A stretch of 64,000 nucleotides of DNA from Diphasiastrum complanatum (lineage: Eukaryota > Streptophyta > Lycopodiopsida > Lycopodiales > Lycopodiaceae), in assembly GCA_029204225.1 (NCBI GenBank), contig CM055114.1, positions 10,849,634 through 10,913,633 of the forward strand, in the 5' to 3' direction. Below the pieces are notes generated by a model, which saw only the letters and a list, made by a program, of their open reading frames with translations, was not told the origin of the DNA and ran no database searches. Of this stretch, positions 5,019-64,000 are shown piece by piece; position 1 is the stretch's first letter; the number at the start of each line of letters is the position of its first letter. The position numbers and the translations under genes were made by a program.

Positions 5019-7440
5019 TTAGTTTAAATACACATGCAAAAGATAATTTATGCAGTTATACCTAGTGTGCACTAGACCAGCAATAGAAACTTCTTCAACC
5101 AAGTGCACCAATAAATGCACTAGTGAGTCCATGATGGAAGTCATAAAATATCTCTCAAACATGCACACAATCTCCACCATATCCTTGTGTCTCTTGCGAA
5201 GATCCAGCTCACGGATTTCTTTTGAACACATCCATTTGCAACATATTCAATCCATTTTATGTCTATTTGAATTCCCAATCAATAAATACTAAATAAAAAA
5301 ATGCACCAAGTACATGTAAATACCTGACAGTGATTGATAGTTTGTATATGGTCTCAAAAATATCTTTTGACAAGCACCCATGAATTGACAATGGATAGAT
5401 GAATTGAATCATCTTTAGCCAATCATGAGATTTGAGACCTTGCAACTTTCCATCCACTGTGAATGATGACCGTAGAGAATCGGCAAAACCAGTTGGTGTT
5501 CTAATGTCATGAATAATGGAGTGCACATGGTTAAGCTCCTCCTTAGTGAATGTCCAAGGTACTTTTGGAGCATGATCTTCACCATCCTTTATCCAATATT
5601 CTTTTTTGGTGTTTGATTCTTTTAGATCGTGCCTTGCAACAATGGTATCTTTTTCACCAATCAAGTGTTTCCAAATAGATTCACCCACATTTTTAAATAT
5701 GTGCATGGGATCAAGTAGGTGATTAATCAAAAGGTTATTCCAATATTCCAAACGATCAAATATAGATAATTTTTTCATACCATCGATTGGCTTTGCTTTA
5801 GATTCCTCCCATAGTATTCGCCAATCTTTCACGGACATCCTCTTTGGAGGCATCTCTCTCTCAACTCTTCCTCCAAAACCTCTTCTATGAGTGTCCTTGA
5901 ATGGATGGCCTTCATGCAAGTATTTACGATGATTTGCATAAACCACTTTTTGAGACTAAAAGAGTATCTTCCCACAAGATTTGGCCCGAACAAAAAACAA
6001 GCATTTTTTCCAACCGTTTGAAAGTCTGCCCAACAAATGGATACTATCAATCACTATTAAAAAAAGTATATGTCAAAGAATAATTATAACCATTGTAGTA
6101 TAGCATGTAAATGTCAAGAATTACTAGTTGTATGTAACTGTAAACAAACTCCTATGTACACAAGATAGACATTGTTTAAATGATTACCTGAGCATTCACC
6201 TAATCCTGGACAGTCATGCATTGTCCACATTACAATGGCATGTAGTGTAATCTCTCTCTCATGTAAGGGGCGCGAAATGTCATATGCTTTTATCTCCTTC
6301 CACAAATCTTCCAACTTGTCAATAAGCGGCTCAAGATACACATCCATGTTATTAACCTTGTGTTGGCCAGAAATTAAAAGTGCCAACATAATGTGTCTCT
6401 TTTTTGTACTCAACAAAGGAGGAATATTATTATTTACCAAGCAAACAGGCCAAATGGACCACGTAGTTGCTCGTACACCAAAGGGGTTTACACCATCTGT
6501 TGCAAGACCAAACCTCACATTTCTTGACTCATTGGCAAAGCTTGGATACTCTTTGTTGATGTGTTTCCATGCAGGTGAATCTGAAGGTACCCTCATCATC
6601 CCATCTGTAGAGGTATGGTGTGCATGCAAGTCCATAAGTTGTGCAAGAGATTTACAACGAAATAAACGTTGCAATCGTGAAATTACTGAAAAATGTCGTA
6701 AAACTTTGTACGAAATGGTTGCCCCTTGCAAATCATCTCTATATCGAGGAGTATCACAAATGGGACATTTCTTGAGTGATTCGTACCTTCCTCGATATAA
6801 AATACAATCTTTTGGACATGCATGATATTGCTTATAGTCCATCCCGATGTTAGACAACATCTTTCGTGCCTCATCTCTTGTCTCAGACATGACATTTTTT
6901 TGTTTTTCAATAGTCTGTACATGACAAAAGAAGTCATTGTAAAAAAAATATCACTTGATGTCCAAATTGTAAATTTTGTTTCAAAGCAAAAATGACAAGT
7001 AGATGAAAAAAATTTTACTCAAATAATGATGTGAGGCTTTGGTCACTCCATCTATATTTGGCTTGAAGATTTAATAGAAGTAGAGAAGTCGCCAAACGAG
7101 ATGTCTTTGCTCCAGGATACAATGCGGTCTTTGATTCTTCTCGCAATTTTCTTTCTTCTTTAGACAAAAGTGCCTCCTCATCTTGTTCATTGTGTCTAGT
7201 TGCAATATTGTTCTCGTACATATCATCCAACATGTCTCCCATGACGTCAAATTCATCATTCATTGGAAGCTCATTTTCATCGTTGGAACTTGTTTGCGAA
7301 GAAGTAGATCTAGATGAGCTAGATTCAGATGCATTAGTCTCTTGATTAATGCACTCATCAATTTCCATCATCTCTTTTAAGCCTTGACGTAGATGACGAG
7401 GTAATTGCTCTATATGTGGACCGTTGTATTGCATTCGTCG
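5019..7440 (-). pseudogene. CACTA TNP2-type transposase (Transposase_21)
   Basis: The DDE transposase that cuts and moves CACTA elements. In order on the minus strand: an acidic Ser-rich N-terminal segment and ALYPGAKTSRLATSLL (7434-7015); a Cys-containing block HACPKDCILY...CPICDTPRY, then the core VLRHFSVISRLQRLF, DSPAWKHINKEYPSFA, RNVRFGLATDGVNPFG (first catalytic Asp), PLIDKLEDLWKEIKAYD (6890-6114); ANHRKYLHEGHPF, then HLLDPMHIFKNVGESIWKHL (second Asp region) (5946-5263); and a C-terminal IVCMFERYFMTS, LVHLVEEVSIAGLV (5231-5019). One frameshift near 5940 separates SFSLKK from VVYANHRK, and introns are likely near 6940-7014, 6060-6180 and 5240-5320. The catalytic motifs are well kept, so loss was recent. 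Confidence 0.88.
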
Positions 7441-7819: not shown

Positions 7820-8851
7820 TCACATTTGAATTATTGTCTTTTGCAAACATTTGGGTAGAGGACGGTTGAAACTATACTTGATGAACAATTCCTCCCCAAA
7901 CCTGATAGATCTAGTGGCACAGACCATTACATAAGTGCCCTTTACATTCCTAGTCGAATATTCTTCTTTTCCATTGGTGCGTTTTTCAAAATCACAATTC
8001 GTTAATACAGGGTGGCCAATGGAACTATTTATATATGCAGCAATATTTCCATGCACATCTGGACGTCCATCAATGTATGTACGATTTGCCCTAGAGTTGT
8101 TGCCTCCGTGCATGCGTTGCTCCTCTAAAAAACAAGCATTAGAATTCAAGCCGTATACTTGCATTCTCCATTGGGGATGACACAAAGCATGCCAATCACC
8201 CCAATGGTATTGAGGTCCTGCATATGGCATCAATGTCACAACACTATTTAAAGGGACCTCAATACTACTCAATGCAAAAAGGCCCAAACCAGCCTCAGGA
8301 AAGTGTTCACTAGGCATGATCATGTACATTCAACCCCAATATGTAAATGGTGTCCCATTTCATGGTAATGGTGATTGGAGTGGCCAACACAAATATCTAC
8401 TTCTAATAAAAGTTTTTACTAATGGTTGCAAGCTAGGTAGAAGAGGAAGGTCAGACAAAGAACCTATAATGTCTTTTGACACATCAACAATGCGTATTAA
8501 TTTGCAATTATCTTTCAAACTAGTCAGTATACGTCCAAGACGTGTTCTCTTTTTTAAAGGGGTGGTCAAGTTTGCGGAATCCACGTGGAGTATCATGGAG
8601 GACTCATGTGCAACATCTAGGATAGGTGTGGTTGGGTGGTAAGAACGTTCTAGAGATTTGGAGACATGGAACGAATCACAAGGCATTGATGAACTAATTA
8701 TATCATGCAAGGGGTCGTCATCAACAAGAGCATTATCTAGGGCCAATGATGATCCAAAATCAATATTCATGTGATTTATCATATCAATAATATTTTCGAT
8801 CTCTCTTACAATTCTTTTTCTTGAAACCAACTTATGGTCCTTCTTCTGCAA
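7820..8851 (-). CDS. SET-domain (lysine methyltransferase-like) protein carried by CACTA-1
   Basis: SET domains methylate lysines, usually on histones. The 7820-8329 frame shows the SET signature in order: EAGLGLFALSSI (start of fold), MPYAG, the pseudo-knot strand NIAAYINSSIGHPVLTNCDF (NSS where NHS is usual) and RSIRFGEELFIKYSF (GEELxxxY). Upstream, 8360-8851 continues in the same reading frame with a basic and Ser-rich region (KKRTRLGRILTSLKDN) of unknown type. Two TGA stops, near 8358 and 8330, separate the halves; they may mark an unrecognised intron or decay. It lies upstream of TNP2 in the same orientation and well inside both transposon ends, so it is cargo of the transposon. The Cys-rich pre- and post-SET modules are not visible. 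Confidence 0.75.
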
Positions 8852-28230: not shown

Positions 28231-28555
28231 ACAAATATGCATGCATAAGTATAGTCTAAACATTTAACCAGTTGTTATATTCCACGTAGACCAAGTTGCC
28301 CCCAACCGTCACGTGTCCCTACGAAAATCCTCGTACTGAGCGTCATCTCTCTCCCTCTCTCTCTCTCTCAGTTATAACTCTTTTGTAAGAGCAGTTGCTC
28401 ATCATTAATGATCAATACAAGCTAGAGAAAAAGGAACTAAGGACCAGTAACTGCTTAAGTACTCCTCATTCCAATCACTTGGAATACTTATGGGATCTGC
28501 TTTGACGTCTCACTAATATTAGTTCCCCCCATCGAGTTTCAGGAAAAAAATTATA
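28231..28555. other. Probable LTR/spacer
   Basis: Follows the copia polypurine tract. It includes CTCTCTCTC runs at 28349-28370 and no coding motif. Confidence 0.4.
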
Positions 28556-29879
28556 TGATTTTATAAATTTAAAAGTTGAATCAATTTTGAATGACAATTC
28601 TTTGAGTGGCTTATTTGTATTACTTCCTTCACCACTTGCAATTGCCTTTGTAAATACTCCTAAATATGTTCAATATGACCAATTGTTAAACACATCTTAA
28701 AGCTTTAGGTCCTCTATACAGTTTTAGGATGCCCAAGACAAATATTGGTCTTCCCCTTTCTAAATTAGATTCAGGTGAATTAGAAAGTAGGGATAAAATG
28801 CTAGGCAACAATGTAGGAGGGGGGATAATATAGGAGGGAATTCAGTATTGGATGGAGTTTTTCCAGACACTATTGTTTATAGATGTAGCATTGTTTCCAC
28901 TTCAATTCATGGCTGGTTTTTTTATATGAATTTTGATTTCACATTCATTCACATAAATTTATTGCTTTCTGATTGCAGTGATCATTGGAGCTTACATGTG
29001 TTGTCCTTGTATGTCAATGATGAGGGTGTGTGTAATCCAGTTTGTTTAAAGATGAACTCACTTACACACACACACAAAATTGCCAAGAGCGCTATTCAGA
29101 GAATACTAGAATTCTTTCCAGTACCAAATGCAATAGCATATACGAAGCTGGAAATGGTTGATGCAGAAGTAAAAACTTATCAATATCGGTCTGGCGCGCC
29201 CTTGTAGTTATTTCTTAGTTTCCCTTCATATCGTGCACGCTGATCGGATATTCAAACAATATTTTTGGATATCGATTCAACGTGCGCTTGATGATGTGCG
29301 CTTGTTTTCATTTTAGATTTTATTAAAACCTCCTGCACATGGTCCGATATTACATACTGTTAAATTTTTTTTACTAACTTTCGTTTATATTTGAATACTA
29401 TAGTCCTCCCAATAGGTTGATTCTGTTAGCTGTGGTTGGTATACGGTATGCAATGCCAATTTCTTTTTTAATTGGCTTGCACTACAAGGTAAACTTCCTA
29501 ATTAGGAAGAGGTAATCTATTCTTGAAAATCACTAATAGCTAATCTTTGATTAATAACATTTAATTGTGTTTTTGTTTTTTTTGTTCATAATCACATTCA
29601 TAATAACATTTCTAATAACTAATCTTTGATTAATAACATTTAACATTGTTTTTGTCTTTTCCAGTATAAATGCCCAAAGGTATCCCCAATGGAGATAATG
29701 CACTTCAAGCAGGAGACCATCAAACTTGTGATCGAAAATTCATATTCAGTTGCAGTGGCAGAGTGTTCTCCACACAAGCTACTTCCAACTGGAGAAATGG
29801 ATTTAGAGATCATAAATTGTCTTCTCCCATCCTTCATGCTAACCGACTTCATCCTAGTGATAAGTGCCATCTCATCTTG
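28556..29879 (+). pseudogene. Ulp1-like element protein, copy I (no histone domain)
   Basis: The same protein as the C-terminal half of 57688-59745. The plus strand reads FINLKVESILNDNSLSGLFV, YVQYDQLLNT, SFRMPKTNIGLPLS, RDKMLG and ALFPLQFMA with frame shifts. After the intron end GATTGCAG at about 28979 it reads DHWSLHVLSLYVNDEGVCNP and LKMNSL. A second intron (about 29176-29403) carries the GCGCGCTGATC-type motifs. Exon NRLILLAVVGIRYAMPISFL ends at a proper GT donor, and the last exon CPKVSPMEIMHFKQETIKLV follows TTTTCCAG at 29663. DHWSL resembles the His site of Ulp1 (C48) peptidases, but a catalytic Cys motif is not evident. Confidence 0.7.
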
Positions 29880-32099: not shown

Positions 32100-35000
32100 T
32101 GTTTTTGAGACTTTGACCTGAAAAAGAGTAATTTTTTTTGGTGTCTTTTAATGGTCATAGTTTTAGGCCAAAATCATGGATTTTTTTAATAAATCTCTAA
32201 ATTTTGTTTTTAAAAAAAAGCCAAAAAATACATATTTTAAATAAAGAACTACAAGTTTTTTGTTGCAAACTTTATAAGATCATCATAATTACAAATGATT
32301 TTTGAAACTTGAAATCCCATTGAAATACAAAACAACTTAAATTATATTGCACATTCTTTTTTTTGAAGTACATTTTCTAAGGAATTTTCACTGATGCCTC
32401 TCAATTCAAAACTTGACATATTCTCAACACTCGTTTTCAGCTGATAAAGTGGAAGACCCATCTTTTTCATCAGAGTCAACTGGCATATCTTCCTCAGAAT
32501 CTGCGTCTAATGTTGACAAAAACCCTTGTAAATCAGCTTTTCTCTGTTGATGACGAGTGGAGGATGATGGTTTTTCTAGTAATTCAAGTCGTTCTTGCAA
32601 TATAGATATAGTGGACTTTCGTAGATGATTGGTCATTGTTAATTCAAAATTAAATGTCAAAACATCTACATCCTGTAGATTCAAATCGTCGACTCTTGGT
32701 TGATTTTTTGGCAATCTCTTTCTCTTGTCCTTTGGATCTACTTGCAACATTTTGAGTTCGTATCTTCCCAAAAAAGCATTCGTTGAAGTGGTGCGCAACC
32801 AATGGACACGTAGTACTTTTGTTTGATTGCTATTTTGAATAAAACCAAGTACTTTGGCAATCCAAAATGGGTGTCCTTCATTGTTTTCTGAAGCTAGAAG
32901 TGCAACAAGGCTTCCAATTTGGATTTCATTCAAATCACCGTGCCATTTCATTTTTGCAGCTTTTACACTTTGCCTATTCTTCCTTGAGCCGACAGTTGTA
33001 GTTGATGTTCCTAATTTATGAGGCCAATGAAATTCTTCAGTTGTTGATGTATGTTCGAGATTGAGCACACTGATTTTTTGTTCCTTGAAAAAGTCCATCC
33101 ACCAATGCTGATCAAACTCATTAAAAAAATGATAAGCTATCTGAATACTTGATTCCAAAAAATTTAATGAGGCAAATGGATCAATCTCACGATGTTCTCT
33201 TTCCACCTTTTGTTCATCTAGCAAGGACTTCAAGGGAGACAACACAACAAGCTTGATTTGAGTCGATGGAATGTTAAGCAAAATCGAACTCCTTCAAGAG
33301 GTAGCTATGAATCTAAATTTGAAAATAATATAATGTCTGATTCGTTACATTTGATTTTAAACTGGTGCTGGAAGCTAATATCATTAATATTAGCTACGCA
33401 TCGTTCTGTTGCCTTAACATAATCACGAAAATCATATGTGTGCCTGATTAATGACACGTTTGGCTTTGGCACATACGATTCCTCAACAATGCTTTGAAGC
33501 ACTGGTAAAGAAAATGCTTTCTTACGTCTCAACCTCTTAGAAAAGCAACTAAACATTTGATCAATTTGATCGTGGGTATGTTCTACCAACAAAAATCCTA
33601 TTTTGCTTTTTTTTTTTAAAAATTTCTCCACTAGCATGGACAAGTATGCCAAAACAGTTTGGTTTTTATTTTTCCTAGCAATGTTGTCAAGCTGCAAATA
33701 AAGTATTTCTTTAAGACTTTCACCAAATTCACAAATTATCTTATGTACAATGGTGATCATCAAATTTGGATCATTTTGAACATTGGGATAATTAAGAAAG
33801 ACCTTGGACTCCAAAGTGCCATTAAACACGTGCTCCAACGAGATGAACTTGAATAAAATCTATCTCGTTCAAATTTCTGGGCACTCTGACAAAATGAGAC
33901 AACATTGTTTTCTTCTGATCCATGCCATCAATAACAAGACCCGGATATTTTTGTGGACATTCCAAATATTTCTTTCGATGTTGGCCAACTTTTGTCTTTC
34001 AACTATTTGTTGATCTCTGTGCAGTTGAAGAGCTTTTGCAGGATCCACTGAAAATACAATGATTCACTTATTATAGAATAAAGATCATACCACAATGGTA
34101 TTCAAAAAGACTGCAACATAAATTTTTTCAGAACAAAAAGTATTAAAATGAATGACAAATTTGATTAATATTTACCTTTCTCGTCATTGGTCTTTGCAAG
34201 TTGTTTTGCAGACTTTAACAACTCGCAAGTGGAGCATACTGTCATTTGTGATTTTTTGGGAATCTTTACCAGTCCAACATCTCTTTTCCAAATTCTAAGA
34301 AAACATGAGTAACTTAAATAGGGAACATTTTTGTTTTGGCAAACTCTTTGTACATCAAAAATATTTCTAATTTTGTAAAATTATCCGGCAAGTGAAAATA
34401 TAAGGAATTAGGCAATTTCTCTCCGTGGACATCTATGAAATGCTTTAGCCAAGTAGTTACATTTAAAACATCTGGAGAAACAATTCGACCTTGTAAGGAT
34501 CCCCGTGATGTTGGGTCTTTTTGAAGTCTTGCATGCATTCGTTAAAGCCGTGAGTTTTCGATTGCGTGAACTACTTTGTAAGCTTTGCGACAAATCTCAA
34601 AAGCATTTAAAAAATACGAAAATGAGTTTTTGTCCGGCCTCACTGTTGCACACAAAATAATAATTTCTCACATCCTTACTTTGTAAAAAGAAGTTTGATC
34701 TTAATTCTTCAATTTATCTGATACTCAACTTTTGCAAACAACAGGATGAGCAACAAATAATATTCCGTACCTTTTGAATCTCAGATTTTTTAATCAACTA
34801 TTTTTTGATGATTCGTTAAATCATGTGAGAATCCCAAGTCTCTCTTGTATTTTTTTTTATGTTTGGAGTCTGATCTATAAATTGAACCTGTGACACTAGT
34901 AGGTGCTTGAATTGGTTGAGAAGGTGTTGGAATTTCATGACTCGGAATTTTGGCTCCAACGTCAGGATGATCTGGACCCTCAGAAGGCTCTAAATTTTCA

Positions 35001-44218: not shown

Positions 44219-44846
44219 TAGTTGGAGTGCGACTTTGAAATGAAATAGAATATATAATGATTGGCTATAATTCTCTGGACGACAAGCGCTCCATGCTTCA
44301 CTACAACACCTTCGGGTTGACAAGTTTTAGAAACCTGTTCTAGTATCCAGTTGTGACAAAAAAAAACTCAAAAATCCAATGACGGGTTATGTGGCTTGGC
44401 CCTACTGAAAGCCACAACAATTAATCAATCATTTAATTGATATTTTTTCTCACCCAGTTGATTGGGTTTTAGATTTATTTAGCAGTAGTGGCACTACCAA
44501 CACATGTGTTGTTCAGAAAGGTAGACATGTTGCTGCAATAGACTTAGATTCTAATTTAGTTAAAATTGTAAAAATGAGAATAAATTCTCTTTCAGTTTTG
44601 CCAGATGAATTGGTTGAGGTAGAAAAGAATTTAGATAATGAGAACTCAATAATTTCCTTGTCCAAGGAACCACAGCCTCCTACTAGTGAAAAAGTGGGTG
44701 ATAAAGAGGAGTTTGCTGATGTTCTAGTTCAAGACTACAATGTGATAATTGTCGATAAAGTTTTGGAAGAGGTGTCACTTGACTCTACAGTGGCTCCTCC
44801 AAAAAAAGTGAAGGATGTAAATAACATTCATGATTTTTGGATGTAA
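44219..44846 (+). pseudogene. Methyltransferase-type gene, 3' part, copy 2
   Basis: Close to copy 1. The first part (NEIEYI...GYNSLDDKRSMLHYN) is broken by frame changes. From about 44405 the frame is open to the stop at 44846: PQQLINHLIDIFSHPVDWVL, then DLFSSSGTTNTCVVQKGRHV, AAIDLDSNLVKIVKMRI, an acidic linker, and the conserved end DVNNIHDFW. Motif I has SSS where copy 1 has GSG. It supplies the in-frame version of the core that is frameshifted in copy 1. Confidence 0.75.
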
Positions 44847-53385: not shown

Positions 53386-54675
53386 CTATACGAGCAACAT
53401 GTTGCAATCATTTAGATTTAGTAAGTTCAAAGTACCAACAGCTTTTCGCCCTTAGAAGTTAACGTTGTGAACCATCAAGTTCAAGGATGCCAATGACCTA
53501 CACACCATCAGTCTCTTTGGTGGTCTCTTAGGTGGCATCATATCTAGAAGAAACACCCAATCGACAAAGACAACTTGATTCCAGTGCCAGTGTGCCCCCT
53601 TTTGCATTCTCAATGGATTTGGTTCATCATTAATATTCCAAAAATTCATTGCATGGTTTAGGGTTTCCTCATGGTATAGTTTTTTATTTTCTTTTCTATG
53701 GGTTTATCAAAGTTTAGGGCTCCTTATTGTTGTTTAAAGTTTAGGGTTTATTGATATTCATAGATGAAAATGTATCTATATACTGGTATTGTCCTTGTAG
53801 CTATGACTCAGTATCTCTCTCTCTCTCACAAACAAGCATGCACACACACACACACACAAAAAAAAAAAGAGAGAATATTATCGAGTGCTAATCAAAACTC
53901 CCCACCCATACGATTATATATCCTATCCCTATTGGAGGGTTTGCGGATCCCAAGACAACCTTAACCCTAGTTAATAAGTGAGAGGGATTCGGCACCCTGC
54001 ATGTGTAAGTCCAACCTGATGATCACATGGTTATTTGATTGATTAGTTAAAAGTTAATAAAGGACTTTAGGCCTTTTTGCGGGACTTTTAATGTCGCAGG
54101 GCCTAAATGTCAAGTTAGTGAATAAAGTTGGGTTTCCCTCCAATTTTGATGGTTCCCACATTTTTTTTAAATTTGAATAAAAGGAGAGGCAAGACTGGAC
54201 CAATAGGATTCAGAGGCCAGGGTCCTCCTCTCTACTATAAAAAGAGACCAACTTGAGTTGCTCCTGATGTTCATTTTCTCATTTCAATAAAGCAGATTGG
54301 TTCTCTTTAGACATGGATTGATGAATGTCCTTGCTCTTCCTCTCTTTTCCTCCATTTCTCATGCTTTCTTTGGTATTTGCTAATTGTTGGATTTGATTAT
54401 TATTGGGATTGCTATTTCTTATGCTTTGGTGAGAGAGAAGAGTAAGTTTCTATCATTGTTGTGGATTTAGGGTTAATGGAAGTAGGGTTAATGGATGTAG
54501 TGTTAATGCTTAGTGTTAATGGATGTCGTGTTAAATCCTCCATTGATGTTGAAATTTGAACTATACTATCGCTCTCATGGGAACAAACCTACTCGTGACA
54601 ACTAACTCCGTCTCTTTGATGCTAGATTGACTAGATCTTGGATTCAGGTTAGGCAAGGAAAGAAACCCACTACAA
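53386..54675. other. Decayed LTR-type DNA, no gene
   Basis: 53829-53935 (CA repeat, poly-A, then GTGCTAATCAAAACTCCC) matches 55352-55440. 53935-54015 matches the end of the LTR at 25339-25622 in reverse. CTATAAAAAGAG near 54236 is TATA-like. 54455-54540 repeats GGTTAATGGATGTAGTGTTA. Confidence 0.5.
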
Positions 54676-55640
54676 TCCCAGAATGTCACCACATGCTCCA
54701 TCCCTAGACATTTGGTTTTTCTTGTGGAACTTCCAACAAGAAACATTTGAACCACGCCTTTAACGCAAGAAAACAAGGGCTACACACCTTCCTAGAATTG
54801 GAAGTGTTGATTACCTTTAACTCTTTCATGATCTCTCTCTCATTTCTTTTCATTTCTCATTCTCTATGATCTCTAGATATATACTCTACAAAACAATATA
54901 TAAAAGCACTCAAAATTGCAAGTTCAACGAAAAAAACAACTCAAAATTAAAACTAAAAAAGCAACTCAAAATTGCAAGTTCAAAAAAAAAAATTTCAAAA
55001 ATGATACTGCAGATTCTCCGAAAAGACGCTGGTACATTGTTTGGAACAAATCCGCCTATTTCAAGGTCAATTTTGACCCCTAGATTGTTCACTCTTGGAG
55101 AAAATTTTTACACTCACTCTTTTTACACTAACTCTCTCTCTCTCTCTCTCTCTCTTCTTATAAGCAACATCAAATCTTGTAAGTCTGAAATCTGACTAAA
55201 GCATACCTAACAACATGAAGCACAAAGTAGTAAGCATAAAACATAAAATAATGGCATCATACTTAACTAATTACCATAAAACTTTGATCTTTGAGGACAA
55301 GAGCATGAAACATAAACTAATATATTACACAAAGCGTAGACTAGTAGCATGAAACACACACACACACACACACAAAAAAAAAAGAGAACATTATAGAATG
55401 CTAATCAAAACTCCCAGACCATACGATTATATCATATTCCATAATGTCACCACATGATCCCTCCCTGCGGCGTTTGGTTTTTTTGTGGAACTTTCAACAA
55501 GAAACAACTGAACCCCACCTTTATAATGCAAGATACACACCTTTTTGGAATTGGGAGTGTTGATTACCTTTAACTCTTTCATGATCTCTCTCTCTCTCTC
55601 TCTCTCATTTCCTTTCTTCTCATTCTCTATCTCTAGATAT
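54676..55640. repeat. Pair of roughly 200-bp direct repeats
   Basis: 54680-54850 and 55440-55600 share AATGTCACCACATG, GGTTTTTCTTGTGGAACTT and TGTTGATTACCTTTAACTCT, followed in each case by CATGATCTCTCTC. CT microsatellites lie at 55131-55154 and 55587-55608. Confidence 0.7.
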
Positions 55641-55699
55641 ATATTCTACAAGACACTATATACAAGCACTCAAAATTGCAAGTTCAACATGAAGAGCAA

Positions 55700-56386
55700 C
55701 TAATACTACAGAAACGCATACATTCTGAGATGAACCTAAACGTAATAAAAGATAGTATTGATTTAGTATGAAAGCGAAACAGAAGTAAATGAGTACAATA
55801 AGTTGCGGATCGAAGCCGCATACTCTAAGCTATCTATGAGAGGCTAAAATGAAAGTCTGAATTAAGCGCAATGTTGATAAGCAGTAAGCTTAATAGCAAT
55901 CTCTAAACAACTCTAAGAAGTGAGCTAGAATTCTCAGGAGTTTTCAAGCTCGCAGGCTTGAGAAAGAGAGAGCCAACTATTCAATACTTGTTGATCTATT
56001 GACCAAAGTTTACTTAAAACTATAGGAATATGGGTAGCTTTATATACTAAGAAAAATGCGGCAACATCCAATAGTAGGACAACTAATTAGGTCGTCAATC
56101 ACAATGGATAGTGAGCTAGCACTCATCCAAAGTGAGCCGGCATCCGTCCAGTTGAATCTTCCCGAAAATTTTGTGTCTTCAATTAATGCGAATTTGGAAT
56201 TGTCTTTGCCTTGATAAAATATTTGTTGAACTATGCTCGAACATTTATAAGTCGAATCCACCTATGAGTGGTTCTCGAGCAGTTATGTAGACTGTGTAGA
56301 AACACAATAAAAACAGTAGTTCTGGATAATGAGTTGGACGAAGATGAAAATGTCGACTAGTCGATTAGTAGGAGAATAATCTGACA
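55700..56386 (-). repeat. Copia 3' LTR (minus strand), far end uncertain
   Basis: On the minus strand the LTR starts TGTCAGATTATTCTCC at 56386, directly after the polypurine tract TTAAGGGGGAG. A TATA-like TAGTATATAAAGC lies at about 56050-56036. The end near 55700 is only estimated. Confidence 0.6.
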
Positions 56387-56740
56387 CTCCCCCTTAATCT
56401 GAATCCATGAATGCCTTGACTTTTAAACTTAGTTCTGCACAAAACTTTCTATGTGCATCCAAGCTTAATGCTTTAGTAAAAATATTTGCCGTCATATCTT
56501 GCGTTCGATAGTACTCTTTTGTCGAGAACTTTGCTTCTGACATAGTGATACTTGAGTTCAATGTGCTTACTTTTAGAATGAAATCTAGGGTTGGCTGATA
56601 AGGCAATAGCATTTTGATTATCACAAAATATAATGGATTAAATGCAAAAATGTTTGGAAGCCACTTGATTAAGATTTTGGTATAAACCCTCAAGAGCAAC
56701 TTCAGATAACAGTGAAAAGAAATGACAACATTCTTGCAAT
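56387..56740 (-). pseudogene. Copia RNase H C-terminus
   Basis: The minus strand reads [20 protein letters not shown] then [20 protein letters not shown] and, after a frame change, [20 protein letters not shown] before the stop and polypurine tract. This is the standard copia RNase H ending. Confidence 0.85.
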
Positions 56741-57104
56741 GGTTGAGGTCGAGGAAGATTGGGGTCTCAATCACATTCGATCAGAACTAGACATGTTGCA
56801 ATTCGATCTACCTCAGTACTATCAATTTCGATTGAATGGTGTAAAAGTACGTTATGCCATATAAAAATATTCCTTTTTTTCTATTTCTAAGTGAATCAGT
56901 TTCATAAAATATATAACTAAAACAATTTCTCTTGTGCAGGTAAGAGTAAGGTAGGAAGAGCATATAAAATGCAAAGACATTGGAACATCCATCGAAATTG
57001 AAGATCCATAGATTATGAACTATGGAATTTTGTAATATGTAATACAATTTTTTGTATACATCATTTTTGAAAATATATGAACCACTTTTTCTATGAGGCT
57101 CTTT

Positions 57105-57250
57105 CATTTCTATGAACTCCATTTCCATGGTGCAAAACACAATGTAATTGCAACTGGATAATATGAGTTTTCTATAGCAAGATTCATTGTCTCCTGCAGG
57201 AAATGCACTATCTCCATTGGGGAGAGCTTCAGCGACTTGAACTCCAGTGA
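57105..57250 (-). pseudogene. Ulp1-like element, last-exon fragment (copy III)
   Basis: The minus strand reads LSPMEIVHFLQETMNLAIEN then SYYPVAI, matching the last exon of the copies at 28556 and 57688. It ends in CFAPWKWSS and a stop. Confidence 0.7.
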
Positions 57251-57307
57251 TCACTACAATCGATGCTTGCCCTTGTTGAAATCTCGCATATATCGGTTGT
57301 ACTTTTG

Positions 57308-57516
57308 GTCTTCATTGCCTTGGTCTATGTTGTCCTTGTCTTGGCATATTTGGATATGTTCAGATGATGATCTGATCAAAGCTTTGCTGCAACAAATCTA
57401 AGTGAACTAATGTCGCATGTTTGGATTGGTTGTGGCAGAGGTTCAATCAGATCATCATTCTGAACTTATCCAAAAAAGACCATGGTAAAGGCAAGGCAGA
57501 CTAAGGCAATGAAAAA
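57308..57516. repeat. Long imperfect inverted repeat (about 70-bp arms)
   Basis: 57308-57376 (TCTTCATTGCCTTGGTCTAT to CAGATGATGATCTGAT) pairs with 57447-57516 across a roughly 70-base loop. It looks like a miniature inverted-repeat element. Confidence 0.65.
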
Positions 57517-57687
57517 CAAACATGTCAAAAAATAGTATAAATTGAAGACGAATGAATCATAACCTTAATTGATAAGAGGAAAAATAACAAGTAAGAACAA
57601 CCATAGAAAAACTGTAAGTATATTTCCATTAAAATTTTCTGTACATGTGTCTCATTCACATCAAGTGAGACGAATATTTAAACAGAA

Positions 57688-59745
57688 TCAACTATCTATG
57701 ATCTCTAAATCCATTTCTCCAGTTGGAAGTAGCTTGGGTGGAGAACACTCGGCCACTGCAACTGGATATGAATTTTCGATCACAAGCTTTATGGTCTCCT
57801 GCCTGAAGTGCATTATCTCCATTGGGGAGACCTTCGGACATTTAAACTGAAAAAAAAAACACAAACACAATTAAATGTAATTAATCAAAGATCAGTTAAT
57901 AGGAGTTTGTATATGAAAAAAAACAAAAACACAATTAAGAGTAATTAATCAAATATTGCCTCTTCTAGATTTGGAAGTCTATCTTGTAATGCAAGCCAAT
58001 TAAAAAAGTGTTTGGCATTGCATTCGGTATACTAACCACAGCTGACAGAATCAATCTGCTGGGAGGACTGCAGAATCCAAATTTGAACATTATGAGATAT
58101 CGGATCAACGCGCAGGATGTAAGAATAAAATCTACAACGGAAACAAGCGCGCATCGAACCGATATCAAAAAAATTTGATTGAATATTGGATCAGCGCGCA
58201 CGTTGGAAAAATAAACCAATCAATAACTACAAGGGTGTATCGAAGCGATACTGAAAAGTTTATACCTCTGCATCAACCATTTTCAGCTTCGAGTATGCTT
58301 TTGCATTTGGTACTGGAAAGAGTTCCAGTATTTTTTGTATATGGATCCTGGCAATAGTGTGTGTGTGTGTAATAGAGTTCATCTTCAAACAAACTGGATT
58401 ACACACACCCTCATCATTGACGTACAAGGACAACACATATAAGCTCCAATGATCACTGAAATTAGAAAACAAGAAATTTATGAGAATCAATGTGAAATCA
58501 AAATTTATATGAAAAATTCAATAAAATAAAACCTAAAAAATAGACACTTTGTTATGTATGGCAGCACGAGAATTGGAGTCCCCAGTCTGCCGTATTGGAG
58601 CATATCATTGTGCAAACTTTTGATTTTAGGGAGATCAAATGCTGCCATGAATTGAAGGGGGAACAATGCAACATCTATAAACAATGGGGTCTGGAAGAAC
58701 TCCATCAAGTACTGAATTGCCCCACTTCCTATATTGTCCCCTAGCATTTTATCCCTACTTTTTAAATCACCAGTATCTAAACTAGAAAGGGGGAGACCAG
58801 TATTGGTCTTCGACATCCTAAAACTGTATCGAGGACCTAAACCTTTAAGATACGTATTTAACAATTGGTCATACTGTACATATTGAGAACTATTTACAAA
58901 GGCAAGTGCAGGGGGTGACAAAAGTAACACTAATAAACCACATAAAGAATTGTCATTCAAGATTGATTCTACCTTTACACTAACTAAATCATCTAAATCG
59001 CTTCCAACAACAGGAGGAGAGAAACTAATATTTACGGGTTTAGGAGGAGGAGGAGATTTAGGAGGTGGAGATTGGTTAGGAGAGGAAGATTTATCATGAG
59101 AAGTTAAAGATGGAGTGGAAGGAGAAGAAGGAGACTTAGGAGGAGAATTCCTAGAAGAAAGAATAATATTCAGAGGAGATGGCTTGGAAAAATCCCTCGC
59201 TTTAGATGGAGGGTCGGGAGACCTCCTCTTCTTTGAAACACTCATGCTCTGTATACGAATAATAAGCCGGGTTGGTTGAGATTGCTTTTGTTTTTTCCTC
59301 TCTGAATCTTGTTTTGGAGGAGAGGAGGGAGCAGGTCTAAAGTATTCAGCAAACTTGTCATATGTGTCCCGAAGCTTGAACACAATGTTGAAATCCTTGG
59401 GCATGATGGTCACCCTCTTGGCATGGATAGCTGCAACAATAGTATCAGAAAAGAATTTCACCTGGAAATCCTCATATGCTATGTGCAGCGCCTCAAATGT
59501 CGTTACTGTCCATCTCACATCTACAGATAGACTTCTTATCACCTGCCTGATGGACCTCTATATGTGCGATTTCAGAATCAGAAGATTATTTGTCTTCTGA
59601 AGCTTCCGAATATCCTTGAGCCAGGTTGGGTCTCTTCTTCTGCCCCTTGGCCTAGGAGGAAGTGGTGGTTGTGGATTTCTCTAACCCGCACCTGAAATTG
59701 GTATTCCACTGAATGCCCTCGTGCTGTCTGCTTGGTCCGCACCAT
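57688..59745 (-). pseudogene. Histone H3/CENH3-like domain joined to proline-rich linker and Ulp1-like domain
   Basis: ATG at 59745: MVRTKQTARGHS matches the H3 tail. After a frame shift (about 59690-59640), LKDIRKLQKTNNLLI starts at 59621, roughly 41 codons in. An amber TAG (59560) sits where H3 has Gln in PFQRLVR. Then come RSIRQVIRSLSVDVRW, TTFEALHIAYEDFQVKFFSD and AIHAKRVTIMPKDF, colinear with H3 through alpha-N to alpha-3. RW and FSD are CENH3-like. A Ser/Pro-rich linker leads to LGDNIGSGAIQYLMEFF and ILVLPYITK. Exon 2 (58455-58266) has DHWSLYVLSL and LKMNSI (Ulp1-like His site). Exon 3 (58067-57983) and exon 4 (57846-57688) follow. The exon 3 donor is AT, where copy I has GT. It is decayed but recognisable throughout. 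Confidence 0.8.
57984..58265. repeat. Dispersed GCGCGC/ATCCGATATC motifs in introns of the H3-Ulp1-like gene
   Basis: The intron after exon 2 carries GTGCGCGCTGATCCAATATT, GATATCGGTTCGATGCGCGC and GCGCGTTGATCCGATATC, in both orientations. Related copies occur in the matching intron of copy I (29230-29370) and at 59750-59950, 60480-60560 and 61040-61240. Confidence 0.65.
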
Positions 59746-60935
59746 TATTGTGTAGTAGCGGATTAGCGCGCGATAATGTTGATTTCAGGATCAGACCTCA
59801 GGTTGGGCGCGTCGAAGCGATGCCTGCGCTAAACAATTTCATTAGCTGGTAGTGGATGGGCACGAGAAAGTAGGAACAGATTGAAGGAAGTTGTTTTCGA
59901 GCGCATTGAATCGATATCGCATGGATACAAATAACTATAAGCAAAATAATTTCAGCGTCGTCGATCAGTATATATAGAGAAAATAAGAAATAATTGCCAA
60001 CGTGGTAGTTTGCAAACGTGGTGGCTCGTATTACGATGATGATTACTCAGAGGCTTGTCAATCAAATCAATCTAAATATCTATCAGTCATCAAAATGATT
60101 AGTCCATATCGAATTAACCAAAACTAATTTCAAATAAAGTATGGTCACATCTACAATTAATCACACTTCTATCATTTAATGCTGAAATTGACAACGTTGA
60201 GCTTTAAATATAAGACCTTTTTTATATCCAATAATTATAATTTTGGAAAATTCCAAAGACCAAATTTTCACCCGATAGCTAATCAATGCGATATAAAGCA
60301 TTTGACAACCATAGTATGTATTCTCGCGTGCTCATCTGATATTGGATGCAATATGAATGATCAGAGCTTGATTCGATAGATTCTGCATAACTTTGGCCAG
60401 TATGAAGAGTCTTCCGAATCAAGCTTTGATCATGCGTATAGGGTCCAATAGTTTAAAAAATTTTGACAATATTTTGGTCCCGGAATAGCGATTCGACGTG
60501 CACATTCCAAATGCAGCAAATACATCGTCTGCCAGACGCACTGATCCGATATCCCATACGCAGAAAAATCATACTGGAATGTATAATGAAAGACTTATGA
60601 AAATATTCTGAATGAACATTATCTCAAAAGGAAAATGTTCGTCTTTACGGTGCTTAAATAGGACGAGAGATTGTAATAATTCTCCTCGTTCACATTTTTC
60701 AATGATATCCATTAATCAACTGTTTATAATTTTTTTAATGATTATTCTAGGAGGCCAGTGATTGTCTATTTAATGTACTCCAACGCAGGGCTAATGATGA
60801 TTCGTTGAATCGAGTACTACACTAGTTAATGTATTTCGGTGTAGGTACAAATTAGTCTCATTTTGATTGGTGGATAAATATAGATTGTAAATCACAAATC
60901 GTTATTTGACAAATGTATGGCTGTGATCAATAGGA
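59746..60935. other. Non-coding region between divergent genes, with GCGCGC/GATATC motifs
   Basis: 59750-59950 and 60480-60560 contain the same motif family as the H3-Ulp1-like intron (for example GGATTAGCGCGCG and GACGCACTGATCCGATATCC). TATATATAG near 59969-59977 could act as a TATA box for the minus-strand gene. No coding motif was seen. Confidence 0.5.
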
Positions 60936-60955
60936 ATTGGCTATAAATATGTGCA
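60936..60955 (+). promoter_or_regulatory. TATA box candidate for the gene at 61228
   Basis: GGCTATAAATATG, about 280 bases upstream of the ATG. More copies of the GATATCGGATT motif lie between it and the ATG (61040-61225). Confidence 0.5.
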
Positions 60956-61227
60956 CCACTTTTCATATTTCGATTCTGTAATCTTTTATTCTGAGCTCTC
61001 TAGCCTTCTTGTTTTTCTTCATTCTCCCAATATCGAATTGACGCACGTCATCCCTTGTTGTGCATGCTCATATTCATTCAGGTGCACCGAATCAATATCA
61101 GCCACTTCCGACCAGTGCTTTTCGAAAAATTTCATTCTCGGCCTTACCATATCGGATTAGTGTGCGCACTTTGCTTTATTCCTCTAACGATATTTATCTG
61201 ACACGTTGAACTGATATCGGATTCAAT

Positions 61228-62787
61228 GTGGCTAATTCTTCCATGGCCTCAGATGACAAACTTATGGATTTTTTTAATACCAGTGACATTCCATCTGACA
61301 AATTAGAGTATTTTGCTAGTATTTTTTTTGCTCCCTTCGATATCGATAAGCTAGTTTACGAGAATCGTTATAATTTAATTTCTTATCTTGATAATTTTTC
61401 TCAGATTATTAGTACTCCTGTCATGGATATAGATAATTTTTGCTTCGTTCATTTTCAAGACCTTGTACATTCCCAACCATCCTCTAAACATAAATACAAT
61501 AGAAAGTACTCTAACCTACATGACAATTTCAAAAGAAATATATACTGTGATATCCACAAAAGAATATGTCGCCTTCTAATCAAAGGAATGGCTTTTGTGT
61601 TAAACATATCTGTTGAAATTCCAGATGATGAGTCTGTTGAATCTTCAACTATTCCATTGATCGAAGCATCTGCACCTATTCCAGTTGATGTAAATGATGT
61701 AGATACTGATATAGGGGTTGAAGCTGAAGCTTCTGTGGCTTCAGATTATCAAAAAACTCTTCTTCGTTCTATAATTCTCTTTGATTCTCTTCCATCTGCA
61801 TCTTCTGTTAATCAATTAACTCTACTCGATGTTCCTTTATATTTTATAAATAATTAATGCTATATTTCATTTAATGATATAGAAGATGTATTGAATCTGA
61901 GAGAGGATGAAATCCTCTCAATTTTTGTTCAAAATTTATTAAAATTTTCTGACATTGTTAATTACTCATATGATGACCTTGAAAGTGAGATAGATTATGA
62001 TAAAGATGGCAATTGGAAATCTAGCAATGAGGCCTTGGAGGCCATGATTGTAAAATCTAAAGCCTATGAAAAGACTTTGCCTACAGAGGAGAAATTTTGG
62101 ATTTAAAAAAAGACATCCCCCTAGGGCTAGATATATCCCCTCCGGAAATGTAGAGGCCATTGGAGGACATGATATCAGCAGAGCAAACGTCATTGATTAC
62201 GATGATTATGATCTAGTAAGTAGATATTATATTGGTATTGATATTGTTCAGTTTTCTTATTTCTTATTGGTATTAATACTGTTCAGTTTTCTTATTGAAT
62301 TTGTAGTGTTATGTCTCATTCTAAATTTATTTTCTTTTCTCATTTGCAGGATGCTATTGAAATAGATGCCTTTGGTATGAGACATGGAGGCGTCCGAGGT
62401 GTATCAGCCGGGAGAAAAGATGTTTTTCTATCTCATTATTTGAAAAACTTTCAGAATAATGAGATTTGTATATATCATTCATCTTATAATCCATATGCAA
62501 CCACTGTCATTATGGCCATCAAATCATTATCAGTTTGTTTAGGAGGCCATAAGTATGCAAGAGGAACATATAAAATAACTTTTGTGAAGAGAGATTTGGC
62601 TATTAAGATAGTGGGTTATACTCCCAATGAAACTACCAAAAGATCACCTGCAATGGCCCTTTATTCGGGTTACATTGATATGAGCAAGAGGAAAAATTTA
62701 GAATTTTTTGATCCATATGAAAGGAGATTATTCCTTCATGACAATACCATCCGTCTGAATCTCGAAGAGGATGATGATGATAATTAA
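61228..62787 (+). pseudogene. Unknown acidic protein gene, two exons
   Basis: Exon 1 starts with MANSSMASDDKLMDFFNTSD and has a long hydrophilic body. One in-frame TAA at 61855 is followed by continued coding (FNDIEDVLNLREDEILSIF). A frame change in poly-A near 62100 leads to RHPPRARYIPSGNVEAIGGH then DISRANVIDYDDYDL. The intron 62217-62349 has GTAAGT and TTTGCAG. Exon 2 reads DAIEIDAFGMRHGGVRGVSA, HSSYNPYATTVIMAIKSL, RDLAIKIVGYTPNETTKRSP and an acidic tail EEDDDDN. I recognise no family. It sits between the H3-Ulp1-like gene and a transposase and shares their motif-rich flank, so it is probably a third gene of one element. Confidence 0.55.
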
Positions 62788-62921
62788 ATAATTTTTTGTA
62801 ATAGATTTTTGATATATTACAAGGATATCTCTTTTGTAATGAATTTGAATGCCTTTAGAAATATTGTAATACTTGGCGAGCTTTTAGCTTGATATCTAAA
62901 TTGTGCTCTTCTGTAAAACCA

Positions 62922-63951
62922 CTAAAAAAGTTGAACTAAATATTTATTTCTTGAATTGTGTCCTCCATGATTTGTTGCTCTATGAAATGCTCCCCTTGCT
63001 TGCCAATGAGATTTTTCCATGCCTTGTGATGACCAGATACTTAAGCTCCCATATTCCTTTGCAAAATAAGTTGCATGATGAAGAAGGATGTGCTGCAAAC
63101 AAAAGTTTTGATTAGTTACATCAGTAGAAAAAAATATAAGCCAGAATGAGAAAAGTACCAAATAATGATATAGATTAGCACCATGTAATGAGTAACGTTG
63201 TCTTTTCTCCAACAATTATGTACAAATTTTACAAATGTGGTGCAATGATTTTGCAAAGTCCTCATATCTTTTGATGATAGGTTTTCTTTCCTGATAACAC
63301 CTATGAGTTTGTCTAAGTTGGTCCACACTTGTCCCTTTTCCACTCGATTACTTCCTTCCAATGTTCGTGTGGCTTGAACAATTTCTCTCCAAATTTTGTA
63401 TCTGGCATTTAATTCTTTGCATGTGTGATTGGATAAAAATCTTCTTGCTTTAGAACCTCCAATTGATGGCTTATTATAAACGTTTCCTTTTTTCCCTAAG
63501 AGTCTGTCACTTTTTCCCATTGTGACATTCCCTTTATGTAGTCTTGCAATTGACAGAACTATTTTCAACCTCCTAATTGCTGCTTTAGCCACTGACTTTG
63601 GTTTATGATTCCATGCTAGTAGAATATGCAGGTAAATTAGTTTTTCAATAATACAAATCTCAACATGCAATGTGCATATGTAAAAATATTTTAATGGAAT
63701 TGGCAGAACACTTTTCATATTTGGATCTTCAGCTTCTCGTGTTGGAACATTATACATACATTTTAATGTTTCAAATCCCCTGCAAGGTGCCATTGAATTT
63801 GAAATCTTCCATGGTTTTTTACTGTAAATTTCTCACCCTCCAAATGTCTCTTTATAATCTCGCCATAGTTTGTTCTTGAAAATATCCATGATAGTATTTT
63901 ATGGTCCTCTTTCAAGACTTGTAGAGAAACAAGTAATGCATCACATGTCAA
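62922..63951 (-). pseudogene. DDE-type transposase, C-terminal part
   Basis: The minus strand reads NHGRFQIQWHLAGDLK and, after a 1-nt shift, TLKCMYN: a WHLAxDLKxLKCM block as in large DDE transposases. PIPLKYFYICTLHVEICIIE, KPSIGGSKARRFLSNHTCKE and LSSKDMRTLQNHCTTFVKFV then NCWRKDNVTHYM follow. After an intron (about 63190-63090) come HILLHHATYFAKEYGSLSIW, SSQGMEKSHWQARGAFHRAT and NHGGHNSRNKYLVQLF. The GLEKxHxxAR...T.hGG ending is typical of these enzymes; I cannot name the superfamily. The N-terminal part lies beyond the window. Confidence 0.65.
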
Positions 63952-64000
63952 TAAAAACTGGCAAGGTATGAATTGTTAATATAGATATTCTAATTGAAAA

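Follow-up and report, generated by a model that had tools for sequence, protein, structure and literature searches.

The window, which is the whole stretch of 64 kb that was analysed, lies on contig C23 of a 1.74-Gb genome, and all genome searches were made in this same genome. On the minus strand, positions 57688 to 59745 hold a decayed gene of four exons, running from ATG to stop, which fuses a histone H3-like part to a Ulp-like part, as read from the sequence, its ORFs and an alignment of copies. Exon 1 (58548-59745, minus) encodes an H3 N-terminus, a Pro-rich stretch, the H3 fold, a Ser/Pro linker and the N-terminal half of the Ulp-like domain. An H3 tail had been claimed in a preliminary description of this DNA and is present, as the window ORF 59578-59784 (minus) reads MVRTKQTARGHS, with its ATG at 59745. 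The H3 fold, from alpha-N to alpha-3 and including AIHAKRVTIMPKDF, occupies 59369-59626 (minus), as placed by Pfam PF00125 and by tblastn with host H3, and the alpha-N of the window copy lies upstream in a different frame from the ORF 58508-59557 (minus). Exon 2 (58266-58455, minus) contains DHWSL, with the catalytic His position, and LKMNSI, with Asn at the Asp position. Exon 3 (57960-58067, minus) contains QQ.DSVSCG, with the catalytic Cys position, and in the window copy it is interrupted by an amber stop, while exon 4 (57688-57846, minus) carries the C-terminal part of the Ulp-like domain and its own stop. The Ser/Pro-rich linker is in the H3 exon, as had been described, but DHWSL and LKMNSI, which had been assigned to that same exon, sit in exon 2 past an intron, and two more introns follow.

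The exon structure was derived from an alignment of 22 gene regions. Splice signals were counted in 19 copies, with two near-duplicates and the 28.5-kb fragment omitted. Donor 1 is GT in 17 of the 18 scorable copies and acceptor 1 is AG in 15/19; the second intron has GT in 13/15 and AG in 16/17, and the third has GT in 13/16 (one further copy shows G plus a gap) and AG in 17/17. The frames join across the three introns, except in exon 2, where the length of a dinucleotide repeat varies between copies. The window copy is disrupted by frame shifts and stops, including the amber of exon 3, and each of the 22 spliced copies is broken somewhere in its four exons. Intact copies, proposed earlier as a check, were found in part: exon 1 is open in copy L029, where the frame runs for 404 amino acids from the ATG, so that the H3 fold, the linker and the Ulp N-terminal half share one open frame in an existing copy. 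Another copy, L022 on contig C141, is 99.2% identical to the window copy over ~8.4 kb, including the flank outside the element; because the identity runs into this flank, L022 is a duplicated or alternative-haplotype segment and not a fresh insertion.

Two further Ulp copies had been reported in the window. One of them is a separate and more diverged family fragment at 28515-29814 (plus), which was found by blastn as three pieces with 82-85% identity to the Ulp part and has no H3; the other, at 57129-57243 (minus), repeats only part of the last exon downstream of the gene (direct repeats D4, 80%, and D10, 75%). The gene itself belongs to a 3'-truncated copy of a larger element, covering 56633-64000 (minus) by blastn with L027 and the 5' part of L032, whose 5' end lies past the window edge. 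This copy also holds two ORFs on the opposite strand, 61210-61857 (plus), whose L038 counterpart has no Pfam family above the cut-off, and 62299-62787 (plus), whose L038 counterpart has no Pfam match. Upstream, 63116-63832 (minus) is part of a second element gene, a putative transposase, for whose counterparts L026 and L035 Pfam returned no family above the cut-off. Elsewhere in the window, an ORF with a SET domain (7823-8329, minus; Pfam E 6e-07) lies near a Transposase_21 (tnp2) ORF (6117-6950; E 6.9e-47), another chromatin-type domain adjoining a transposon. Additionally, the C-terminal part of an N6_N4 DNA methylase is encoded at 44409-44843 (plus; Pfam E 1.2e-09) and a DUF7869 ORF at 33308-33859 (minus; E 3e-43), and 54675-55701 contains an imperfect tandem duplication with a spacing of ~760 bp.

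The fusion is widespread in the genome. A tblastn search with the 350-aa window ORF gave 119 match rows, representing at least 116 loci with the window's own included (loci were counted by hand, three of them give two rows each, and some are near-identical duplicates on small contigs); since these 116 were scored out of 9,498 first-look candidates, the number is a lower bound. At 100 of the 116 scored loci the H3 and Ulp parts are colinear (from query residue 10 or less to 290 or more), three of the 100 in two frames, and at the remaining 16 the match begins at residues 20 to 52. Matches were found on all 24 largest contigs. Genome-wide counts with 32-mer probes, allowing up to three mismatches, were 584 for H3 and 642 for Ulp exon 2, with 0 for controls. 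A plain CENH3 pseudogene was considered and rejected, as the fused layout recurs at these 100 of 116 scored loci in a delimited element.

The fusion gene sits inside a delimited mobile DNA element of ~10.2 kb with imperfect 32-bp terminal inverted repeats, and the repeated, mobile nature of the unit that had been suggested is thereby supported. A common 3' end was recognized in 6 of 20 copies read at 10 kb, and L032 carries the matching inverted 5' end. One complete example, C1:21824706-21834945, measures 10,240 bp and holds both ends together with the H3 probe (21831140) and the Ulp exon-2 probe (21832119). Searched with up to three mismatches, the 32-bp ends occur 1,304 times (5') and 1,064 times (3') in the genome, and the reversed-pattern controls 0 times; these counts exceed those of the probes, and therefore many ends belong to copies without H3/Ulp probes, that is, shortened or diverged elements. 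Inspection by eye showed no target-site duplication at any of three end pairs (L048-L051 and the L032 ends). VANDAL MULEs make target duplications of ~9 bp and have non-TIR ends; the element has 32-bp TIRs and a duplication at 0 of 3 end pairs, and so differs from the VANDAL type in both respects. Among nine ORFs of element copies on both strands, one of them the fusion, no transposase was matched, the ORFs other than the fusion having no Pfam family above the cut-off, and a profile search of the transposase-candidate ORF against the PDB gave nothing better than E 1.2; its AlphaFold model has a pLDDT of 34.2, too low for use. The upstream gene may be the transposase, judging by its likeness to unnamed animal proteins. 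One peptide-pattern scan of IMG/VR returned no relatives.

The histone identity of the H3 part is firm. The ORF 58508-59557 (minus) matches the Pfam Histone family (PF00125) at E 8.9e-11 over residues 2-63, and the open exon 1 of L029 matches at E 3.1e-20 over 97 of 122 model positions, which bears out the fold from alpha-N to alpha-3 that had been proposed, with the alpha-N of the window copy in another frame. Against the PDB, the same ORF matches H3 chains at ~3e-9, and the best 60 matches listed are all H3 or H3 variants, while tblastn of host H3 on the window marks 59620-59369 at E 1.5e-16. Of the two findings named earlier as refuting the fusion, neither was made: profiles do match the histone fold, and the H3 part of this family does not form a gene by itself that ends in a stop of its own. 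The fold of copy L025 aligns with H3 with zero indels and shares 40-42% identity with two host H3 genes and, likewise, with two CENH3 folds, from Arabidopsis and rice. The CENH3 likeness that had been noted holds in part. In its favor are the LLIP and RW residues, which are of CENH3 type, and a tree that groups CENH3 with the fused family and a second, unfused family against H3 at 94% ultrafast bootstrap (fused with unfused, 77%), a grouping in which mutual attraction of long branches is possible. Against it, the loop-1 insertion of CENH3 is absent from the fused fold in the alignment with the Arabidopsis and rice sequences, loop 1 having the H3-type length, and the protein starts with the TKQT of H3. 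Each of T, K, Q and T is kept in 16 of 17 copies; the first residue is A in 11/17 and the second R in 10/16. At position 9 the mature tail carries G in 17/17 copies, and it is Pro-rich thereafter; of the full ARTKQTARKS tail, with its K9, K27 and K36 context, the TKQT start is what remains. The fused protein thus reads as a mixture of H3 and CENH3 features and not as a clean CENH3. Its normal H3 C-terminus is replaced, the fold running into the linker and the Ulp-like domain, and nucleosome assembly is therefore uncertain. The AlphaFold model of exon 1 has a pLDDT of 33.7, too low for use.

The assignment of the C-terminal domain to the Ulp type is probable. The domain shows the Ulp/SENP-type signature His..Asn..Gln..Cys, in which the catalytic His position is kept in 21/21 copies, the Cys position in 19/19 scorable copies, and two Gln positions, for the oxyanion-hole Gln, are Q in 17/19 and 16/19 scorable copies. 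A profile of six copies, searched against all PDB chains, gave four matches; the top two are two versions of SENP8 (E 0.15 and 0.16), whose His and Cys regions line up with those of the profile, and the other two are OTU1 (E 1.1 and 1.4). A two-sequence Ulp profile matched only 34 of 177,635 PDB sequences at E<=0.01, and hhalign with the same two sequences (Ulp1/ESD4) aligned 21 columns around the Cys motif at a probability of 0.3%. Two spliced copies matched zero Pfam families at E<=10, with HMMER filters in place, and hence no Peptidase_C48. The Pfam check that had been suggested thus succeeded for the Histone family and failed for Peptidase_C48, and the Ulp1 likeness originally claimed stands on the motifs and on the weak SENP8 profile match. 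Because there is no Pfam match and the best PDB match is SENP8 at E 0.15, this assignment is weaker than that of the histone. In 20 of 21 copies Asn stands where the catalytic Asp is expected, the remaining copy having Asp, and three copies of a second subfamily, B, likewise have His and Asn. Asn serves in papain-type proteases. The predicted protease function of the Ulp-like domain is unproven, because of this Asn (20/21) and the lack of a Peptidase_C48 match in two copies.

The element's H3 is not the only multiplied H3 in this genome. Among the at least 150 matches listed from a genome search with the Pfam Histone profile, 13 are canonical H3 genes at ~1e-45, three are short pieces (the two that were read, L044 and L045, are split H3 genes) and 134 others score 95-110 bits; the list is filled by H3 and mobile copies, and the host CENH3 gene is absent among these matches. 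Four of the 134 (L041, L042, L043 and L047) were read in part, and they encode an unfused H3 with a Pro-rich stretch before the fold and their own stop after RERN, L043 ending two codons earlier. Their fold regions are 95.7-98.7% identical and the common sequence extends downstream. The family also includes L052, and a 32-mer probe counts 175 copies of it in the genome; because of this copy number, it is probably mobile. An unfused copy on contig C156 has a MARTKQTAR start, a Gln-/Pro-rich tail and an open frame of 417 amino acids. Fused and unfused families share a WLxDIR alpha-N and the TKQT start, and in both tails the sequence after this start is unrelated to H3.

We propose that the window contains a relic of a ~10.2-kb TIR DNA transposon, whose four-exon H3-Ulp/SENP-like fusion gene acts on host chromatin. 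We hold this reading tentatively, with a probability of about 0.4. Most likely, the fusion serves the element as an accessory chromatin protein. The H3 part would pair with H4 or with a histone chaperone, or would otherwise address the protein to chromatin, carrying the Ulp-like part with it. There, the Ulp-like part might remove or bind SUMO/NEDD8-type marks, which could weaken the silencing of the element or aid its movement. Such a role would resemble that of the Ulp1-bearing KIU/VANC genes of VANDAL MULEs, with the histone as the address. A broader alternative, which we regard as doubtful, considers both families together: the fused and unfused genes would form an H3-variant lineage owned by transposons, diverted long ago from H3/CENH3 and kept by selection on the elements, which would build or edit nucleosomes at element copies for anti-silencing or targeting.

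The copies of the gene were also compared for signs of selection. Subfamily A, the main burst, has a mean DNA identity of 91.8% (171 pairs, 19 copies) and a star-like tree. Within this burst selection was not detected: replacement and silent changes stand at 144:67 on internal vs 633:269 on terminal branches (20 copies, P=0.62), and the pairwise dN/dS of the H3 fold (19 copies), 0.67, is not below that of shifted frames (0.34 and 0.57). Five more diverged copies were added, of which L053, L055, L056 and L057 make up subfamily B and L054 falls within A. Differences fixed between A and B were then set against singletons within the groups, using 20 A and 4 B copies in groups defined after the sequences had been seen. 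Near-duplicates L004, L006, L007, L010, L020 and L022 and the 28.5-kb fragment were omitted before counting and, for exons 2-4, L028, L035 and L039 as well. In the H3 fold, the fixed differences are 2 replacement to 10 silent vs 72:42 among singletons (odds 0.12, P=0.0036), a result that recurs, with P between 0.0014 and 0.0101, in 10 of 10 settings that differed in the threshold and in whether transversions alone were counted. The linker gives 23:16 vs 143:48 (P=0.051; below 0.05 in 0/10 settings), the Ulp N-terminal half 8:11 vs 129:74 (P=0.084; below 0.05 in 4/10 settings) and all three pooled 33:37 vs 344:164 (P=0.0012). For Ulp exons 2-4 the counts are 4:9 vs 72:34 (P=0.013), after an identity filter that drops misaligned rows, with 16 A and 3 B copies read (12-16 A and 2-3 B per exon piece). 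The contrast of 2:10 with 72:42 indicates that the H3 fold was kept by purifying selection in the source elements from which A and B arose. The rest of the gene seems to be constrained less tightly, with a similar but weaker signal in Ulp exons 2-4, and the amplified copies appear to decay neutrally.

These comparisons bear directly on a simpler explanation, in which pieces of a histone gene and of a Ulp-like gene were captured as passengers and multiplied without use to the element, like the hAT-borne H3 of Pseudocercospora. Such a capture has this precedent in the available part of PMC6710886, and it would account for the 22 spliced copies being all broken and for the missing selection signal inside the burst. 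It does not predict the strong silent excess among the fixed H3-fold differences between subfamilies, the similar, weaker excess in Ulp exons 2-4 or the in-frame GT-AG introns, and an H3 part that is ~40% identical to host H3, yet free of indels over the fold, is unlike a recent capture. We therefore consider passenger capture unlikely. Selection on the fold could instead reflect insertion steering, the fusion directing the element to, e.g., H3/H4- or CENH3-rich chromatin, in which case the Ulp-like part would bind its target and would not act as a protease. That the H3 fold is the most constrained part, that Asn occupies the catalytic Asp position in 20/21 copies and that the LLIP and RW residues are of CENH3 type would all suit this account; matches on each of the 24 largest contigs speak against the steering, and the conserved His and Cys positions against the loss of protease activity, which leaves it improbable. 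Finally, that the H3-like N-terminus is a decoy for H3K4 readers or writers and the fold serves mainly for stability is very unlikely, since the first two tail residues are variable among fused copies (A1 in 11/17, R2 in 10/16) and the fold is constrained above what a mere carrier would need, even if T, K, Q and T are each kept in 16/17 copies and one unfused copy has the exact MARTKQTAR, with the rest of both tails unrelated to H3.

Proteins such as VANC, which act on DNA methylation, are known to help transposons against silencing, and stray histone genes also occur as transposon cargo; fungal DNA transposons carrying TET/JBP genes have reportedly been studied too (PMC12730594). Should the accessory chromatin protein proposed here be real, an element would be using its own histone, maintained by selection and coupled to a deconjugase-like domain, to act on chromatin. 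The element offers a tractable system: its copies number in the hundreds, its ends are defined, two subfamilies can be compared, and a second family provides unfused H3 genes. For annotation, such genomes will yield many false H3/CENH3 gene models.

Among known systems, the closest on the histone side are fungal. An H3-like gene named H3L, which fits neither H3 nor CenH3 fully, is found in a hAT element of Pyrenophora tritici-repentis (PMC3538342, in its available part), and in Pseudocercospora fijiensis, according to the available part of PMC6710886, a hAT element with 8-bp target duplications has spread H3 to hundreds of copies, which are intronless captures inactivated by RIP. Both share with the present element the plan of a TIR DNA transposon with an H3-like gene in tens to hundreds of copies, but the available texts of PMC3538342 and PMC6710886 describe no H3 joined to a domain of protease type, whereas the element here has its own introns, a Ulp-like fusion and purifying selection between source elements. 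The scanned element ORFs have no Pfam match to the hAT dimerisation domain, and the 8-bp duplication is absent at 3/3 end pairs.

On the Ulp side, the comparison is with plant MULEs. Ulp1 domains occur in KIU/VANC of the Arabidopsis VANDAL non-TIR MULEs and in MULEs of melon, rice and grapevine, and VANC counters silencing (PMC13317346, in its available part). These elements and ours are alike in being multi-gene plant DNA transposons in which an accessory gene contains a Ulp1-type domain, but ours has clear 32-bp imperfect TIRs and a histone part, and the word 'histone' occurs 0 times in the available text of this review on Ulp1-bearing MULEs. No MURA-type transposase was matched by Pfam in the nine scanned ORFs of element copies. 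Compared with plant CENH3 and H3, the fused protein has the H3 fold, the TKQT start and HAKRVTIMPKD, and LLIP and RW as in CENH3, but its identity is 40-42%, with no loop-1 insertion and no H3 tail past residue 8. With SENP8/DEN1 and Ulp1 (C48), it has the order His...Gln...Cys in common, in register with SENP8, and differs in the Asn at the Asp position and in lying under Pfam detection. No histone-Ulp fusion was found in the literature searched, a body mostly without subscription papers and bioRxiv preprints. Thus, H3 and Ulp1 are each already known as transposon cargo; what the present element adds is the fusion of the two, its maintenance by selection and its co-occurrence with a second high-copy H3 family.
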